DNA of 46,410 nucleotides from an uncultured Clostridia bacterium. Its GTDB lineage: Bacteria; Bacillota; Clostridia; Christensenellales; Borkfalkiaceae. The notes under the pieces are model-generated. The model saw nothing but the letters and a program-made list of their open reading frames with translations, made no database searches and had not been told where the DNA came from. Of the stretch, positions 2,583-12,332 are shown in pieces (the stretch's first letter is position 1; each line of letters starts with the position of its first letter). Position numbers and translations under genes: made by a program. The DNA lies in the NCBI GenBank assembly GCA_944343275.1, contig CALVMH010000058.1, positions 1-46,410 of the forward strand, in the 5' to 3' direction.

Positions 2583-4166
2583 TTATGCTCCTATGTACGT
2601 AGATGGGTTGATGCCATACGGGATCCGCCAGCCATTCCCGGCAATGCGGTCAATCAGATTCCGGGCCTGCTCAAACTGCCAAGTCCCCACATGCTGAAAC
2701 CCCCTGCTCTCCAAAAAACGGATTTGCTTTGGCGTAGTCAGCCCCTCGCGCCTGCGTTTGTCCAACCGTTCCAACAGCTTTGACGCTTTTCCAGCGTTTT
2801 CAATTTCATCTGCAAAAATACCCATCTTTTCCAGGGCAGCAAGCTGTTTTTGGGACGGCGGCATCATTTCCCAGCCAAACGCCGGGACATAATTTGCCAA
2901 ATCCTCTGCCTGGATGGACAGTTCAAATTGCAGCGGATCTACCAGTTTCCGTTTCCGCGTTTTCATTTCCTGCAACTGTTTGGCAAGCGCTTCTTCGCGC
3001 TGCGCTACAACCTCTTCACTTGCCGCAATTTCGGCTTGTTCAATATCTACCGGGAACGCGGCTTTTTCCAAATCCTCCGTCATTTTCCTGGCGACCTCTT
3101 CACTTTCACAAATCAGGTTCGCCGGATGGCACAGTTCATGCCGCTCGGTATGCCATAAAAAATCCAGCAGCAGCAATTCCGTTTTCCCCTCGCTGATCCG
3201 CGTGCCGCGCCCTACCATCTGGCAATACAGGCTCCTCACTTTCGTCGGCCGCAGCACTACAATACAGTCAACAGACGGGCAATCCCACCCTTCAGTGAGC
3301 AGCATGGAATTGCACAGCACATTATATACGCCGCGTTCATAATCAGCCAATATCTGCTCCCGGTCAGCGCTGTTACCGTTTACCTCTGCTGCCCGGAACC
3401 CCATCCCGTTCAAAATATCCCGGAATTTCCGGCTGGTTTTGACCAGCGGCAAAAATACCACCGTTTTTCGTTCCATACAAATTTTTCGCATTTCATCTGC
3501 AATTTGATACAAATACGGATCCAGTGCCGTCCCAAGGTCCGCCGTCTTAAAATCCCCCGCCTGTGTGCCAACCTGCGTCAAGTCCAGCTTCAACGGGATG
3601 GTCTGCGCCTTTATCGGCGACAGGTATCCCGCCTTTATCGCCTTCGGCAGCGTATATTCATACGCCAGGCTCTGGAATACCGCGCCCAGGTTTCTCATGT
3701 CTCCCCTGTCCGGCGTAGCGGTCACACCAAGCATCAACGCGTCACAAAAGTAATTGAGCACCTTTTGGTAACTGTCCGAAATGCAGTGATGCGCCTCGTC
3801 GATGATAATACAATCGAAAAAGTCGCGCTCGAACTGTTCCAGCCGCCTTTGCCGCATCATGGTCTGTACAGACCCTACCACAATCCGGTACCAGCTCCCA
3901 ATGCAGGATTCCTCCGCTTTTTCTACAGCACAGCCCAGCCCGGTGGATTTTTTTATTTTATCCGCCGCCTGCTGCAAAAGTTCTGCGCGGTGCGCCAAAA
4001 TCAGGACACGCTTCCCAGCCCTGACGCATTCTTCCGCGATTTTGGCAAACACGATCGTTTTCCCGCAGCCAGTCGGCAAAACCAGCAGCGTCCGCTGATT
4101 CCCCTTCGCCCATTCATCAAACACCGCAAGCTTTGCTTCCTGCTGATAAGGCCTTAGCTGTACCAT
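2583..4166 (-). CDS. Superfamily II DEAD/DEAH helicase
   Basis: A 527-residue helicase of the type found in phage replication modules. Residues 1-200 carry the RecA-like N-domain: Q-like motif near LRPYQQEA, Walker A PTGCGKT (31-37), DEAH box (123-126) and TATP (149-152). The second domain ends with a QMVGRGTR arginine-finger motif (motif VI). The remaining 170 residues are a charged, coil-prone tail followed by a small helical domain repeated in related phage helicases. Its start overlaps the stop of the DUF669 gene by one base (TGATG), implying translational coupling. Likely unwinds DNA for replication or recombination. The exact substrate is not visible. Confidence 0.92.
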   Translation of the reverse strand: MVQLRPYQQEAKLAVFDEWAKGNQRTLLVLPTGCGKTIVFAKIAEECVRAGKRVLILAHRAELLQQAADKIKKSTGLGCAVEKAEESCIGSWYRIVVGSVQTMMRQRRLEQFERDFFDCIIIDEAHHCISDSYQKVLNYFCDALMLGVTATPDRGDMRNLGAVFQSLAYEYTLPKAIKAGYLSPIKAQTIPLKLDLTQVGTQAGDFKTADLGTALDPYLYQIADEMRKICMERKTVVFLPLVKTSRKFRDILNGMGFRAAEVNGNSADREQILADYERGVYNVLCNSMLLTEGWDCPSVDCIVVLRPTKVRSLYCQMVGRGTRISEGKTELLLLDFLWHTERHELCHPANLICESEEVARKMTEDLEKAAFPVDIEQAEIAASEEVVAQREEALAKQLQEMKTRKRKLVDPLQFELSIQAEDLANYVPAFGWEMMPPSQKQLAALEKMGIFADEIENAGKASKLLERLDKRRREGLTTPKQIRFLESRGFQHVGTWQFEQARNLIDRIAGNGWRIPYGINPSTYIGA

Positions 4167-7976: not shown

Positions 7977-8019
7977 CGCTCAAGCTAATAGCCGGAATAT
8001 TCAGTTTCGTTTCTACCTC

Positions 8020-8229
8020 CTATGCGCCCTCATCAAATAAATCGTCAATCGTACAACCAAAAACATCCGCTATGCGCTTTGCCAATCCAAGCCCCGGAAT
8101 CTTTACATCTTTTTCCACACACTGTATCATCTGCTGCGTTGTCATTACCTTTTCAGCAAGTTCGGCCTGCGACCAGTTTCGCGCTTTCCTGCGCTTCATA
8201 ATATTTTCACCTATCGGCATGTATCCCAC
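8020..8229 (-). CDS. Cro-like XRE-family regulator
   Basis: A 69-residue single HTH domain. MKRRKARNWSQAELAEKVMTTQQMIQCVEKD covers helices 1-3, and IPGLGLAKRIADVFGCTIDDLF the C-terminal helices. ATG at 8229 or the MPIGENI methionine (8220) follows AAAGGGGGTGGG. It is the first gene of the leftward early operon and divergent from the repressor gene, so it fills the Cro position. Its expected targets are the TATCTA-N4-TAGATA operators at 8266-8648. Confidence 0.85.
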   Translation of the reverse strand: MGYMPIGENIMKRRKARNWSQAELAEKVMTTQQMIQCVEKDVKIPGLGLAKRIADVFGCTIDDLFDEGA

Positions 8230-8257
8230 CCCCTTTCATCGAAATACAACCAGATTG

Positions 8258-8286
8258 TTGACTTTTAATTTTAGATAATATATAAT
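8258..8286 (+). promoter_or_regulatory. Rightward promoter of the control region
   Basis: TTGACT (8258-8263), 17-bp spacer, TATAAT (8281-8286). The spacer includes a TAGATAA operator half-site (8272-8278). The transcript would start near 8293, five bases before the 12-bp closing stem of the structured element. Confidence 0.8.
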
Positions 8287-8290
8287 GATG

Positions 8291-8590
8291 TTGCCTATTA
8301 TGGCGGGAAAGGAGTCGGTCATATTGACCAAACTTTTGACCTTGCCTGTTCCGTTGGTCGATACTGTCAGCACATAGGCATTTTTATGGCAGTTCGTGGC
8401 TGCCAAAGTGACAGTGCTTCATAGAATCGGTGCTGCACCCGTAATCTCAACTGCATACCATGCTGGGGAGATTTTGCAGAGTCAACGGTAAACAATCACG
8501 GCGTACGGCGGGGATGCTCTGGGAAATTCTATATGGATTTTCCGTGCAGCAGAGCAAACCCACGGGCGTTCCCGCCATAAGAACAACATA
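8291..8590 (+). ncRNA. Highly structured RNA element in the lysogeny switch
   Basis: About 283 bp closed by a perfect 12-bp inverted repeat (8298-8309 with 8569-8580). Internal perfect or near-perfect helices are: GGTCA/TGACC (8317/8325), TTGACC/GGTCGA with one G-U on this strand (8336/8356), ACTGTCA/TGACAGT (8363/8409) enclosing TGGCAG/CTGCCA (8387/8400), AATCTC/GAGATT (8443/8468) enclosing GCAT/ATGC, and TGCTCTG/CAGAGCA (8515/8550) enclosing GGAAA/TTTCC. No credible coding frame with a ribosome site on either strand. Promoters point into it from both ends, so either strand, or both, may be made. I cannot match it to a known RNA family. Confidence 0.7.
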
Positions 8591-8595
8591 GTTGT

Positions 8596-8624
8596 ATTAT
8601 ACTATCTATATTTAGATAAGTCAA
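8596..8624 (-). promoter_or_regulatory. Leftward early promoter with operator in the spacer
   Basis: On the minus strand TTGACT (8624-8619), 17-bp spacer, TATAAT (8601-8596). The spacer contains the palindrome TATCTA-N4-TAGATA (8603-8618). It should drive the Cro-like gene and early operon through the structured element, and be shut off by the repressor. It faces the promoter at 8258-8286. Confidence 0.82.
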
Positions 8625-8648
8625 TACAATTTATCTATTTTTAGATAA
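8603..8648. promoter_or_regulatory. Repressor/Cro operators
   Basis: Two palindromes: 8603-8618 (TATCTA-TATT-TAGATA) and 8631-8648 (TTATCTA-TTTT-TAGATAA, perfect 18 bp), with centres 29 bp apart. A half-site TAGATAA recurs at 8272-8278 in the rightward promoter. Spacing and location fit XRE repressor binding. Confidence 0.8.
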
Positions 8649-8682
8649 TTCGGCATACTGCACAAAATGGAGGTATGTTTTT

Positions 8683-9039
8683 ATGCAATCCATCCAATCT
8701 ACCGCCAAACGCATAAAAGAATTATGTGATATGAAAGGTATATCAATAAATAAAATGCTAATAGAGAGTGGTGCTGGTGCACGAACATACCATAATATGT
8801 TAGCAGGTTCATATCCATCAATGGATAAAGCCGCCAAAATCGCCGACTACCTCGACTGTTCCATAGACTACCTCTTAGGCCGTACCGATGTTCCAGAGGT
8901 CAATCGCGGCGATAATTACAGCCAAATACCACATTATGCACAATCCGCAGCGTCAACCGGGCGGGAACTTGGCAAATCGCAATCGCCTGACGATGTGGTC
9001 GAGATTACCGCATTACAGGAATACGAGAAAAATAAATAA
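8683..9039 (+). CDS. XRE-family phage repressor (ImmR-like)
   Basis: 118 residues. An HTH domain at about 6-65 (TAKRIKELCDMKGISINKMLIESGAGARTYHNML...MDKAAKIADYLDCSIDYLLGR) is followed by a polar 50-residue tail without the S24/LexA-type serine-lysine peptidase. It starts behind GGAGGT. As the first gene of the lysogeny block it is the likely CI-equivalent. Without autocleavage, inactivation could be by the ImmA-like peptidase at 10508-11194, as in ImmR/ImmA switches. That link is inference from architecture. Confidence 0.85.
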   Translation: MQSIQSTAKRIKELCDMKGISINKMLIESGAGARTYHNMLAGSYPSMDKAAKIADYLDCSIDYLLGRTDVPEVNRGDNYSQIPHYAQSAASTGRELGKSQSPDDVVEITALQEYEKNK

Positions 9040-9089
9040 ACACCTTAATGGCTACACGAAAACCACTATTATAAAAGGGGTTGGCAGAG

Positions 9090-10445
9090 ATGGAATTTTT
9101 CGATATTTTTAAAGTAGATGAATTTAAACGAAAAATAGCTGAATTGGAATCCAAAAATGCCAGTCAACTCTGCGAAATTAACAAATTGACCTCACTTTTA
9201 ACGCCAGAACACAACGATGTTTTAAAACTGCGCGAAGAAATCAAAAAATTAAATAATGAAAAATCCAAAATTCTTTTTGAAACAGAAAAAGAAAAAGAAG
9301 TGATGCTCGCCGAAGCAGCAGAGAAAAAAGCTGCAATATTAGATTTAGATGCACAAATCGCATCTAAAAAAGAAATGATTATCGAAATGGATGATACCAT
9401 CCTACTACAGGAATTTGGGTTATATGAGCCAAAATACGATTTTCAAACAGCAGAAGAATATAAATCCAGACTTCAAAAAGTGCGGCAGAACCAAAAGGAC
9501 ATGATTCGAGAAGGAACCGCTGCAACCGGCTCTACAGATTGGACAGTAAACGGCAATCAAAGCCAAGGCAGAAAAATGGTGAAAGATATGCAGAAATTGC
9601 TTCTGCGCGCATTTAACAGCGAATGCGAAGAAATCATTGATAAGGTAAAATATAATACTTTTGATTCGGCATTAAAACGGATTACTGCATCCTATGAGGC
9701 TATTTCTAAACTCGGCACAATTATGAATATTAAAATTGCAAAACCATATTATGATTCTAAAATAGATGAATTGACAATTTCCCTCGAATATCAAATGAAA
9801 AAACAAGAGGAAAAAGAACAGCAGAAAGAGCTTCGCGCTCAAATGCGGGAAGAAGCTAAGCTGCAAAAAGAAATTGAAGCAGAGCGTAAAAAAATAGAGA
9901 AAGAAGCGGCCCATTACAAAAACGCATTAACTCAAATTGAGGCTCAGTTAAACGCTGAGGAATCAGAAGAAAAGAAACAAGAACTCATGGCTAAAAAGGC
10001 GGAAATTGAGGCGAGCATAGGAGATGTAAATAAGGCGCTTGAAGATATCGATTACCGCGCAGCCAATCAACGTGCCGGTTACGTTTATATCATATCAAAT
10101 ATTGGTTCATTCGGGGAAAATGTTTATAAAATCGGTATGACGAGACGCTTAGACCCAAACGAGCGCATTGACGAACTGGGCGATGCATCTGTCCCGTTTG
10201 ATTTTGATATTCACGCAATGATATTTTCTGATGATGCTCCAAAATTAGAAGCCGCATTACATAAAGCATTTGAGGATAGAAAACTGAATTTAGTAAATCA
10301 TCGGAGAGAGTTTTTCAACGTTACGCTTGACGAAATCAAAAATGTCGTAAAACAAAACTTCGACAAAACAGTAGAATTTATTGATACAGCCGATGCCGAG
10401 CAATATCGGATTTCAAAGAAAATGAAAGAGGAAAAAACGGCATAA
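9090..10445 (+). CDS. DUF4041 / T5orf172 (GIY-YIG-like) protein
   Basis: About 451 residues from ATG 9090 (AAGGGG site; an in-frame TTG at 9081 is less well spaced). An N-terminal coiled coil is followed by a DUF4041-like region (about 150-225), a second long coiled coil (about 230-320), and a C-terminal T5orf172/MUG113 domain with YVYIISN, VYKIGMTRRLDPNERI and LEAALHKAFEDRKLN. The C-terminal domain is a GIY-YIG-like fold. Such proteins recur in phage lysogeny modules beside repressors and integrases. A role in lysogeny or superinfection defence is plausible but unproven. More AT-rich than the late genes. Confidence 0.85.
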   Translation: MEFFDIFKVDEFKRKIAELESKNASQLCEINKLTSLLTPEHNDVLKLREEIKKLNNEKSKILFETEKEKEVMLAEAAEKKAAILDLDAQIASKKEMIIEMDDTILLQEFGLYEPKYDFQTAEEYKSRLQKVRQNQKDMIREGTAATGSTDWTVNGNQSQGRKMVKDMQKLLLRAFNSECEEIIDKVKYNTFDSALKRITASYEAISKLGTIMNIKIAKPYYDSKIDELTISLEYQMKKQEEKEQQKELRAQMREEAKLQKEIEAERKKIEKEAAHYKNALTQIEAQLNAEESEEKKQELMAKKAEIEASIGDVNKALEDIDYRAANQRAGYVYIISNIGSFGENVYKIGMTRRLDPNERIDELGDASVPFDFDIHAMIFSDDAPKLEAALHKAFEDRKLNLVNHRREFFNVTLDEIKNVVKQNFDKTVEFIDTADAEQYRISKKMKEEKTA

Positions 10446-10507: not shown

Positions 10508-11194
10508 ATGGATAAAATATTAAAAGCATCGTGCGAGCTGCTTTTGGCCATCCACGATGACATGAACTATGTCAACTTGGAACATTACGTTACAACCAAA
10601 AAGCATTGGAAGGTGGTTTTGTATCATACAAAACCCGGAGATGACCTGTTAAAACGTCTCAGCATCACGTGCGACCTATTTCAATACTCAAGGGAAAACA
10701 CCGGGTTTGCATATAGAACACAGAACATAAATTACATATTTATAGACGGTAATTTGGATGAATTAGAACGATTGCGCATATTGGTGCACGAAATCGGACA
10801 TATCATGCTCGGGCATTTGGAAACCTGTCAAATCAATGCCAGCAACCGTACCCAGAATGAAATTGATGCAAATACCTTTGTAAAGTATGTATTAAACCCG
10901 AAAAAATCCGACTGCATCAAGTATCGCATTTTAAATTTCAGGGTCGGTATATTTGCAATATTGGCAGTTGCTATTTGCATTTGTATTGGTATATTAACTT
11001 TAAATCCCGGAACTGGAACCAATGCAGTAATAAGCCCGAAAATAGGCAGCAATACCGTATATGTCACGCCATCCGGAGATAAATACCATACAAAAGATTG
11101 CCGCTATATCGATGAAAAAACGGCCGTTGAAATACCGATTGAAAAAGCGCGTCAAAGCTATGCGCCATGCAGCGTTTGCAAACCAAACGACTAA
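10508..11194 (+). CDS. ImmA/IrrE-type metallopeptidase, membrane-anchored
   Basis: 228 residues. The ImmA/IrrE domain has the zinc motif HEIGH (94-98) with third ligand candidate E118 (NEID). A transmembrane segment follows at about 143-165 (GIFAILAVAICICIGIL). The C-terminus carries a short H...C...CxxC module (H194, C198, C221, C224), a tail seen on other Gram-positive exported or membrane proteins. It is the probable antirepressor protease acting on the upstream repressor. A transmembrane anchor between catalytic and metal-binding domains is unusual for this role. Start has AAAGGGGGAT upstream. Confidence 0.85.
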   Translation: MDKILKASCELLLAIHDDMNYVNLEHYVTTKKHWKVVLYHTKPGDDLLKRLSITCDLFQYSRENTGFAYRTQNINYIFIDGNLDELERLRILVHEIGHIMLGHLETCQINASNRTQNEIDANTFVKYVLNPKKSDCIKYRILNFRVGIFAILAVAICICIGILTLNPGTGTNAVISPKIGSNTVYVTPSGDKYHTKDCRYIDEKTAVEIPIEKARQSYAPCSVCKPND

Positions 11195-11273: not shown

Positions 11274-12332
11274 ATGTCCTCAGACGGCACCATCCGCAAA
11301 CGCGCCGATGGACGCTATGAGCTGCAAATTGTCACCGGCAAAACGCTGGACGGTAAATATACCAGGAAATCCTTTTACGGATCCGGCCCGCGCGAAGTCA
11401 AACAAAAACGCGATGCATGGCTGGAAAAGCAAGCACGGCATGAAGCGGTTGACCAACACATGGGTTTTGACGAATGGGCATTACGTTGGGCAAAGACTTA
11501 TAAACACGCCTCTGTTAGCGACAGCACATACAAAGCAATCATAAGATATATAACAAATTATCTTATCCCATATTTTAAAAATGCACGTCTGGCAGACATC
11601 AAAACGGCAGATGTACAGAATTTTTTCAATCAAAACATGGATAAATCGTCCGCCACACTTGATAAATTGAAAAAGGAATTGAATCAAATTTTTGAAGCCG
11701 CTATCGACAATGACCTGTGCTTTAAAAATCCATGCAGAAGCATAAAATTACCGACTTATAAAAAGGTTTTAGAAAAACGAGTATACACACAGGCACAATC
11801 CGAAAAAGTCATAGAATTTGCAAAATCACATCCATTCGGTATGGGTGTGCTGTTAATATTATCAACTGGCATCCGCCGTGGTGAACTGCTGGCACTGCAA
11901 TGGGAAGATTTTGATTTTGACCGTAAAACAATTACAGTCAAACAGGCAATAAATGCATCCGGTCAAATCAGCCATCCAAAAACCGAGGCGGGAAACCGTA
12001 CCATACCATTTAGTAACGGACTAAGAGAATATTTAGAACCGTTCCGCGGAAGTGGCTATCTGATATCCAATAACAATGGTAGCTATATGCATCCAAACAA
12101 CTGGGACAAACGACGTTTAAAACCGTTTATGCTCGATATGCACACACAATACCAGGATATCCCTATACTGACTGCACATGAATTGCGGCATACCTATGGA
12201 ACGCTGCTGAGAGAACAAGGAATTGACATCTATACCATTCAAAAAGTTATGGGACATGCTGATATTCAGGTCACCGCCGACGTATATGTACATAACGATA
12301 TTGATGTATTAAGAAAAGCTATGCATCTATAG
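11274..12332 (+). CDS. int: Tyrosine integrase
   Basis: 352 residues, typical length. An N-terminal arm-binding/AP2-like domain at about 1-55 (GTIRKRADGRYELQI), a SAM-like core-binding domain at about 65-150, and the catalytic domain from 165. Catalytic residues visible are R201 (TGIRRGEL), H302 and R305 (HELRHT), H328 (MGHAD) and Y338 (YVHND). It directly precedes attP. The ribosome site AAAAGGAG lies after the terminator of the previous operon, so int has its own expression unit or depends on readthrough. Confidence 0.97.
   Translation: MSSDGTIRKRADGRYELQIVTGKTLDGKYTRKSFYGSGPREVKQKRDAWLEKQARHEAVDQHMGFDEWALRWAKTYKHASVSDSTYKAIIRYITNYLIPYFKNARLADIKTADVQNFFNQNMDKSSATLDKLKKELNQIFEAAIDNDLCFKNPCRSIKLPTYKKVLEKRVYTQAQSEKVIEFAKSHPFGMGVLLILSTGIRRGELLALQWEDFDFDRKTITVKQAINASGQISHPKTEAGNRTIPFSNGLREYLEPFRGSGYLISNNNGSYMHPNNWDKRRLKPFMLDMHTQYQDIPILTAHELRHTYGTLLREQGIDIYTIQKVMGHADIQVTADVYVHNDIDVLRKAMHL

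Follow-up and report, generated by a model that had tools for sequence, protein, structure and literature searches.

Two strong promoters face each other in an immunity-type region of a Clostridia prophage, and a structured element lies between them. What is this element, and does it take part in the choice between lysis and lysogeny? We addressed these questions in a stretch of DNA of 46,410 bases (the window). Its opposing promoters probably decide between dormancy and killing by the phage, and the RNA between them may itself belong to the dormancy switch. Convergent promoters of opposite developmental fate are known from phages P2 and 186, and the lambda promoter PRE and the P4 CI RNA likewise act on lytic or immunity genes. 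OOP, P22 sar and P1 c4 are further phage RNAs acting on such genes (PMC12197685). As regards the element of the window, comparison with related loci strongly argues that it is a divergent, sub-threshold and prophage-borne relative of the RNA class FuFi-1 (Rfam RF02986).

Promoters and fold of the window element

The first-pass annotation of the window had described twin TTGACT-17-TATAAT promoters, rightward at 8258-8286 and leftward at 8624-8596. Both are present exactly so, each scoring 11/12, and they rank first among the 8 promoter-like sites that 8000-9100 contains (shuffled sequence gave 2.6 on average, sd 1.4). The surroundings bear out the proposed lysis/lysogeny-type region, with genes for an XRE protein, T5orf172, an ImmA-like protein and an integrase running rightward, and an XRE gene and replication-type genes running leftward (Table 1). 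The DUF4041/T5orf172 gene occupies 9081-10445, between the XRE repressor-like and the ImmA-like genes. A longer imperfect inverted repeat takes in both promoters (z 9.9 against dinucleotide shuffles), and part of this promoter-surrounding inverted similarity looks like shared operator sequence. Palindromes of the form TATCTA-N4-TAGATA occur only twice in the 46,410 bases, at 8603 and 8632, where they overlap or flank the leftward promoter.

Table 1. Coordinates of the FuFi-1-like RNA of the window, its parts and the neighbouring genes
Feature	Position	Strand	Basis
XRE (HTH_3) gene, cro-like, first leftward gene	8020..8229	-	Pfam
Rightward promoter TTGACT-17-TATAAT, putative start of FuFi-1-like RNA	8258..8286	+	promoter scan
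Operator half-site TAGATAA within rightward promoter	8272-8278	+	sequence
FuFi-1-like structured RNA, approximate extent, ends unmapped; Rfam match 8363-8505	8292..8580	+	fold, Rfam, comparison
P0 5' strand TGCCTAT, pairs with ATAGGCA 8374-8380	8292..8298	+	comparison
5' arm of 12-bp terminal inverted repeat (closing helix)	8298..8309	+	repeat search
P1 5' strand GGCGGG, can pair with CTTGCC 8341-8346 in ORF (two G-U)	8302..8307	+	by eye
Shine-Dalgarno site AAAGGAG	8308..8314	+	sequence, comparison
Start-codon hairpin GGTC 8317-8320 / GACC 8326-8329	8317..8329	+	comparison
Short ORF, TTG start, MTKLLTLPVPLVDTVST, TAG stop inside P0 3' strand	8324..8377	+	comparison
P2 ACTGTCA 8363-8369 / TGACAGT 8409-8415	8363..8415	+	Rfam alignment, comparison
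P3 hairpin; loop TCGTGG 8394-8399 pairs with TCACGG 8496-8501 (pseudoknot)	8387..8405	+	comparison
P5 hairpin CGG[TGCTGCAC]CCG; loop 8431-8438 complementary to 8544-8551	8428..8441	+	repeat search, comparison
Conserved GGTAAACAA, immediately 5' of pseudoknot 3' strand	8487..8495	+	Rfam alignment, comparison
P5-loop partner GTGCAGCA, 3' hairpin region	8544..8551	+	repeat search
3' arm of terminal inverted repeat	8569..8580	+	repeat search
Leftward promoter TTGACT-17-TATAAT, probable lytic (cro) promoter	8596..8624	-	promoter scan, facing-promoter comparison
Operator-like perfect palindrome TATCTA-N4-TAGATA, inside leftward promoter	8603..8618	.	pattern search
Second operator-like palindrome, flanking leftward promoter	8632..8647	.	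pattern search
XRE (HTH_26) gene, repressor-like, sense, directly 3' of RNA	8683..9039	+	Pfam
ImmA/IrrE-like metallopeptidase (Peptidase_M78)	10508..11194	+	Pfam
Phage integrase	11274..12332	+	Pfam

Between the promoters, the 283-bp element with its perfect 12-bp terminal inverted repeat (8298-8309/8569-8580) was found as annotated. The folding energy is -112.2 kcal/mol (z -5.48) for its plus strand and -99.5 kcal/mol (z -3.55) for its minus strand, and 0/100 shuffles equal either value; the suggested preference for the plus strand thus holds, although the minus strand folds well too. Several minimum-energy helices differ from the conserved ones described below, because the conserved structure has pseudoknots, which such folds cannot see. 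In the window, the 5' repeat arm shares sequence with P1 and with the first two Shine-Dalgarno bases, which makes the closing helix and P1 mutually exclusive. A tool scan of 8000-9100 revealed no intrinsic terminator.

Relationship to FuFi-1 and the set of relatives

The first-pass annotation could assign the element to no RNA family, a view that has to be revised. In a permissive Rfam search of 8200-8700 (501 bases), the plus strand at 8363-8505 matches FuFi-1 with 34.8 bits and an E value of 5.9e-6, below the gathering cut-off of the family (59.6 bits); at gathering thresholds Rfam gave no match in the window. The models of the large phage RNAs GOLLD and ROOL gave no match at gathering level, nor at E <= 10 in 8200-8700. 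The bit score alone was not relied on, because two further Rfam matches, L017 (35.5 bits) and L018 (31.6 bits), score alike and on viewing carry no motifs. As in the Rfam model, the full series of consensus elements (model positions 1-175) aligns in order on the plus strand of the window, with P2, the P3 hairpin, AAGTGAC, CATAGAA, TGCA and GGTAAACAA kept. The window differs from the class in its sub-threshold score, in its terminal inverted repeat and in that the 3' terminator hairpin with T-run, a feature of FuFi-1 membership, was not found in 8000-9100. Its genome holds one such element, and no second copy was detected there.

FuFi-1 is an already known class, reportedly described in 2017, and as far as we could find no function has been assigned to it. 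What our sequence comparison would add is a 5' ORF domain, a pseudoknot between the P3 loop and the 3' tail, and complementarity between the P5 and terminator loops. The Rfam model is without the 5' ORF domain, and the loops of P3, P5 and the terminator are unpaired in it, even though its own consensus is complementary at two of them (P5 loop GugcuaU, terminator loop AuagcaC). No description of this extended anatomy was found in the searchable literature, which did not cover the original FuFi-1 report. The window carries it: a short ORF behind a Shine-Dalgarno site, P0, the P3 pseudoknot and, in the 3' part, a complement to the P5 loop.

The comparison rests on a working set of 40 elements, the window included, which were collected from Rfam matches in related genomes, by BLAST (L020) and by patterns run on viral contigs and on genome contigs. 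The set includes both copies of L033 and the near-identical pairs L041/L087 and L043/L097; L003 and L107 were analysed separately, beyond the 40. L080 and L100 (ORF, no recognisable core) and L019 (core not resolved) belong to the 40 and stand outside the 37 loci used for core features. The genome-contig pattern returned 77 stretches, and matches without a Shine-Dalgarno-like site before the pattern were treated as chance; L054 and L099 have such a site, yet were judged unrelated by eye. L030, L038, L044, L083 and L084 were left out as copies of elements already in the set. Only ATG, GTG and TTG were admitted as start codons; unrestricted starts gave 11 CTG matches, every one without a Shine-Dalgarno-like site. 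The viral-contig pattern behind L025-L029 fixes the TTG start, and part of the ORF sequence is specified by the genome pattern; in loci derived from patterns, ORF conservation is therefore in part a product of the selection.

Nine elements were obtained without any ORF pattern (the window, L002, L003, L015, L016, L019, L107 and L110 through Rfam, L020 through BLAST), and all nine have a short ORF with a Shine-Dalgarno-like sequence starting in the same region. Conversely, 17/19 loci that came from the ORF pattern or BLAST and were then scanned lie above the FuFi-1 cut-off, with 93-141 bits; the two sub-threshold ones are L024 (cut by the contig end, 50.2 bits) and L087, whose structure is close to that of the window element. 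Several candidates were discarded: L011-L014, from a viral-contig pattern on the core alone, showed no other features on viewing; the Rfam match L010 (25.1 bits) showed no motifs; and L005-L009 (<=20.8 bits), L108 (27.1 bits) and L109 (25.9 bits) had no ORF-motif match on the matched strand within 500 bases.

FuFi-1 is rare among the genomes scanned. Matches at E <= 0.001 occurred in 7/391 genomes of the class, 6/396 of the order and 2/398 of the phylum, counts that include the window's genome each time and come from filters that lose weak matches. Searches of named phages and named plasmids for the element gave at most one weak match per search. L033 carries two tandem FuFi-1-type elements (3266-3875) spaced by about 526 bp; they differ in their short ORFs and, as judged by eye, in their loops.

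Conserved anatomy: short ORF, pseudoknot and loop pair

At the 5' end, a -10 box of at least 4/6 was found at -41 to -52 in 37/39 testable loci. Helix P0 joins the 5' end of the RNA to the stretch immediately before hairpin P3 and so closes over the short ORF; its statistic is modest, with a mean score of 6.94 against 6.37 in permutations, 1/300 of which scored as high (here and below, permutations treat the loci as unrelated to one another). P1 and a hairpin at the start codon lie around the Shine-Dalgarno site, and this hairpin has compensatory forms in L002 and L019 (by eye). The ORF is 11-30 codons long across the 40 elements and starts with TTG in 33, ATG in 4 and GTG in 3. Start, Shine-Dalgarno site and short length are kept across the set, the Shine-Dalgarno site having itself been a selection criterion. 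The 5' domain of the RNA carries a probable tiny gene that overlaps the structure, and its translation would be expected of a leader-peptide attenuator. The short ORF at 8324-8377 was not among the features listed in the first-pass annotation. In 22 compact loci the ORF stops between -20 and +51 nt from P3 (window, +9). A long variant with an extra stretch, in which the stop lies 102-177 nt from P3, is seen in 15 loci (L021, L023, L025, L027-L029, L031, L051, L052, L063, L066, L069, L082, L101, L105).

The pseudoknot between the P3 loop and the 3' tail after GGTAAACAA reaches a score of at least 4 in 34/37 loci. Over 34 unique pairs its mean is 4.84, against 2.99 in permutations, and 0/2000 permutations were as high; the tail of L023 was misplaced by the script in this statistic, whereas the loop-loop test used the right place. 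In that second test, at least 7 Watson-Crick pairs join the P5 loop and the terminator loop in 28/37 loci, compared with 481/11,100 permuted combinations; no loop-loop match was found in L026. An alignment of 15 collinear sequences had 92.9% of 561 cells paired, against 72.2% when shuffled and 36-44% when slid. In the same 15 sequences, the loop-loop helix had 99.0% of its cells paired, and 7/7 of its pairs changed on both sides. The homologues thus covary strongly, and the RNA between the promoters is truly structured, as had been proposed.

The window, L041 and L087 were kept out of this alignment because their 3' parts did not align. The window's P5 loop is nonetheless 8/8 complementary to its partner, which is held by 46/20,000 shuffled tails. 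Since the 3' hairpin of the window differs, the automated search found only 4 pairs there and not this partner, which was assigned from the repeat search and by eye. By eye, too, P4 is weak in the window, the partner sits outside a clean hairpin loop, and L041/L087 retain an 8-bp loop partner.

The loops change fast. Among 31 loci with an assigned pair there are 26 distinct loops, and 12 close relatives share 0.72 identity in the core against 0.44 in the loops, with identical loops in 0/66 pairs. On the sequence evidence, loop complementarity is compatible with contact in cis or in trans. No trans target is visible, because loop 7-mers show no excess elsewhere in 24 loci (10 versus 9.2). As for the suggested RNA-RNA pairing, the pairing with comparative support, loop-loop and pseudoknot, is of the RNA with itself or its own copies.

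P3 is followed by P4 and P5 and, in 28/37 relatives, by a terminator of their own, so that the long unbroken overlap of opposing transcripts expected from the window is not the rule. Our script found none behind the tail in 9/37 loci, among them the window, L041 and L087, and these three have a terminal inverted repeat. The closest sister of the window in layout is L107. It has a 39-codon ORF ending 9 nt 5' of P3, a 6-bp pseudoknot, a 7-bp loop pair, a closing repeat (18/19) extending over the Shine-Dalgarno site, an XRE gene in sense and a facing promoter of 12/12. At the position usual for the rightward promoter, L107 showed no strong candidate, the best being 9/12 at -104.

Genomic context and candidate mechanisms

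Prophage-like immunity regions are the setting of many relatives, with a repressor-type gene downstream; some loci do not show this setting, for instance L063, L066 and L080, in which other genes follow downstream. ORF prediction used a crude caller, and counts are confined to loci whose flanks were long enough. Most often, FuFi-1 is followed by a convergent small ORF and then by a sense repressor-type gene. Pfam domains of the convergent ORFs (26/27 submitted, L080 left out; overlapping counts) were HTH_3 in 9, HTH_26 in 9 and DUF739 in 8, and those of the downstream sense ORFs (29/30 submitted, one protein being listed twice) HTH_3 in 21, Peptidase_S24 in 6 and Phage_CI_repr in 6. By the same caller, only 22/38 loci have their nearest upstream ORF antisense to the RNA.

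The face-to-face geometry recurs beyond the window. Within 230 bases behind the tail, 3/36 loci (window, L020, L027; shuffled, 0/360) have a leftward promoter scoring 11/12 or better, and L107 too has one directly behind the RNA. In 14/22 loci a leftward promoter scoring 10/12 or better is found upstream of the convergent small ORF. From these counts, FuFi-1 and probable cro promoters are opposed in many loci, and what separates them is either the RNA by itself or the RNA together with the small ORF. A rightward promoter seemingly follows the RNA in L020 and L027 (by eye). Similarity between the promoter region of FuFi-1 and the cro/repressor intergenic region (p <= 0.02) was seen in 13/28 testable loci, and in 9/13 it is inverted, as in the window; the test took the better of two orientations, and about 1 locus is expected by chance. 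Because it used single-base shuffles and any two sigma-70 promoters share hexamers, its p-values flatter operator sharing.

The comparison of loci provides the structure, its pairings, the ORF frame with start and Shine-Dalgarno site, the promoter and the context, and from these we infer a possible course of events. The FuFi-1-type RNA would be transcribed rightward from 8258-8286, antisense to leftward transcription from 8596, and its promoter would be repressed by the phage repressor jointly with the lytic promoter. As the repressor would shut this promoter, the RNA should be made when repressor is lacking, upon infection or induction. Ribosomes on the short ORF would halt at the P0 3' strand in the window, or nearby in other loci, so that translation would compete with folding of P0 and P3. 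Once the fold is locked by the pseudoknot and the loop-loop contact, polymerase would either halt at the end of the element or proceed toward the repressor gene, and with either outcome the transcript would oppose the lytic operon. With no terminator found in the window, the RNA there would serve as leader of the repressor mRNA, and its 5' end would be closed by the terminal inverted repeat, which overlaps P1 and the first Shine-Dalgarno bases. It is thus quite possible, if short of probable, that the RNA is regulatory, under control of the repressor and coupled to ribosomes, and opposes the lytic operon as a translation-coupled brake that favours repressor establishment. Readthrough to the repressor may be rare, because 28/37 relatives have terminators and L020 and L027 seem to carry a rightward promoter behind the RNA, and direct masking by a stopped ribosome would not work alike in the 15 long loci, given the distance of their stop from P3. 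In its orientation the RNA recalls lambda PRE, and its antisense position recalls OOP (PMC12197685).

Other readings account for parts of these data. The P5 loop might pair with the 3'-hairpin loop of another molecule and give homodimers or rings, in which case the RNA itself, and not transcription through it, would be the product, and variable loops would stop mixing with the RNAs of co-resident phages. Complementarity over at least 7 bases in 28/37 loci, the divergence of loops relative to the core and the different loops of the tandem L033 copies (by eye) would suit such assembly, and a kissing loop of ROOL first known as covariation proved intermolecular (PMC12286853). An intramolecular contact, however, predicts identical covariation, and 26/27 genomes or records carry a single copy (by one exact pattern), so that a need for loop orthogonality is not supported; we consider self-assembly doubtful. 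An antisense RNA like OOP or sar, which destroys or blocks lytic mRNA by full complementarity and uses its fold as a stabiliser, would agree with the antisense position in the window and with the commonest order, in which the RNA comes directly behind the convergent small ORF, often an HTH gene. Full complementarity requires no pseudoknot, loop pair or short ORF, and this reading appears unlikely.

Transcriptional interference of the P2/186 type, with the mutually firing promoters as the switch and RNA structure as secondary, draws on the strong facing promoters of the window, on those in L020, L027 and L107, and on those beyond the convergent small ORF in 14/22 loci, and the gene order would suit it as well; since facing promoters recur, convergence with a probable cro promoter is common. 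Yet a leftward promoter before a leftward gene is expected anyway, the terminators of 28/37 relatives would limit overlap, and interference needs none of the structure, pairing and ORF that covary extensively. It may well operate too, but alone it leaves the conserved RNA unexplained and is improbable as the whole account. P2 and 186 also differ from the present case in that the long overlap of the window is filled by a conserved RNA, which terminates itself in most relatives (28/37). Finally, differing inverted flanking repeats in the window, L041/L087, L021, L025, L028, L003, L107 and others could be taken for the ends of a small mobile element or MITE. These repeats vary in sequence and position between loci, some are promoter or operator-like sequence, and the window's genome has one copy; we reject this origin as very improbable.

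The translation-coupled brake remains our preferred reading, and it has partial parallels. We know of no FuFi-1 fold or short ORF in OOP, PRE, sar, c4 or P4 CI RNA. In the rep leaders of IncI/IncB plasmids, a short leader ORF is coupled to a pseudoknot and a specificity loop; FuFi-1 differs from them in having no replication gene and in carrying the loop partner within the same transcript. ROOL and GOLLD are ornate phage-borne RNAs with covarying kissing loops and oligomerisation through loops (PMC12286853). Like them, FuFi-1 is phage-borne and has covarying loop contacts; it is shorter, lies here in immunity-type regions and not near tRNA islands, and has a short ORF. A bolder view, which we hold with considerable reserve, makes FuFi-1 an RNA-coded specificity system, in which phage-specific 7-nt loop pairs, formed by two separate molecules or by a nascent RNA with a finished one and linked to the translation of the 11-30-codon ORF, would set lysis-lysogeny beside the repressor/operator immunity types and with like diversity. 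The immunity-region setting, the probable 5' ORF and the fast-changing complementary loops turn an orphan motif into a testable developmental switch, and this suggests that Clostridia prophages may employ RNA-RNA specificity beside repressor proteins.

Two observations on flanking sequences may be added. A 302-aa ORF consisting largely of tandem GSASIS-type repeats adjoins the element in L002 (426-1334). In L025 and L028, the 5' flank has short inverted stretches (34 and 54 nt) that resemble the downstream XRE-type gene, which gives the impression that fragments of this gene were duplicated around the RNA.
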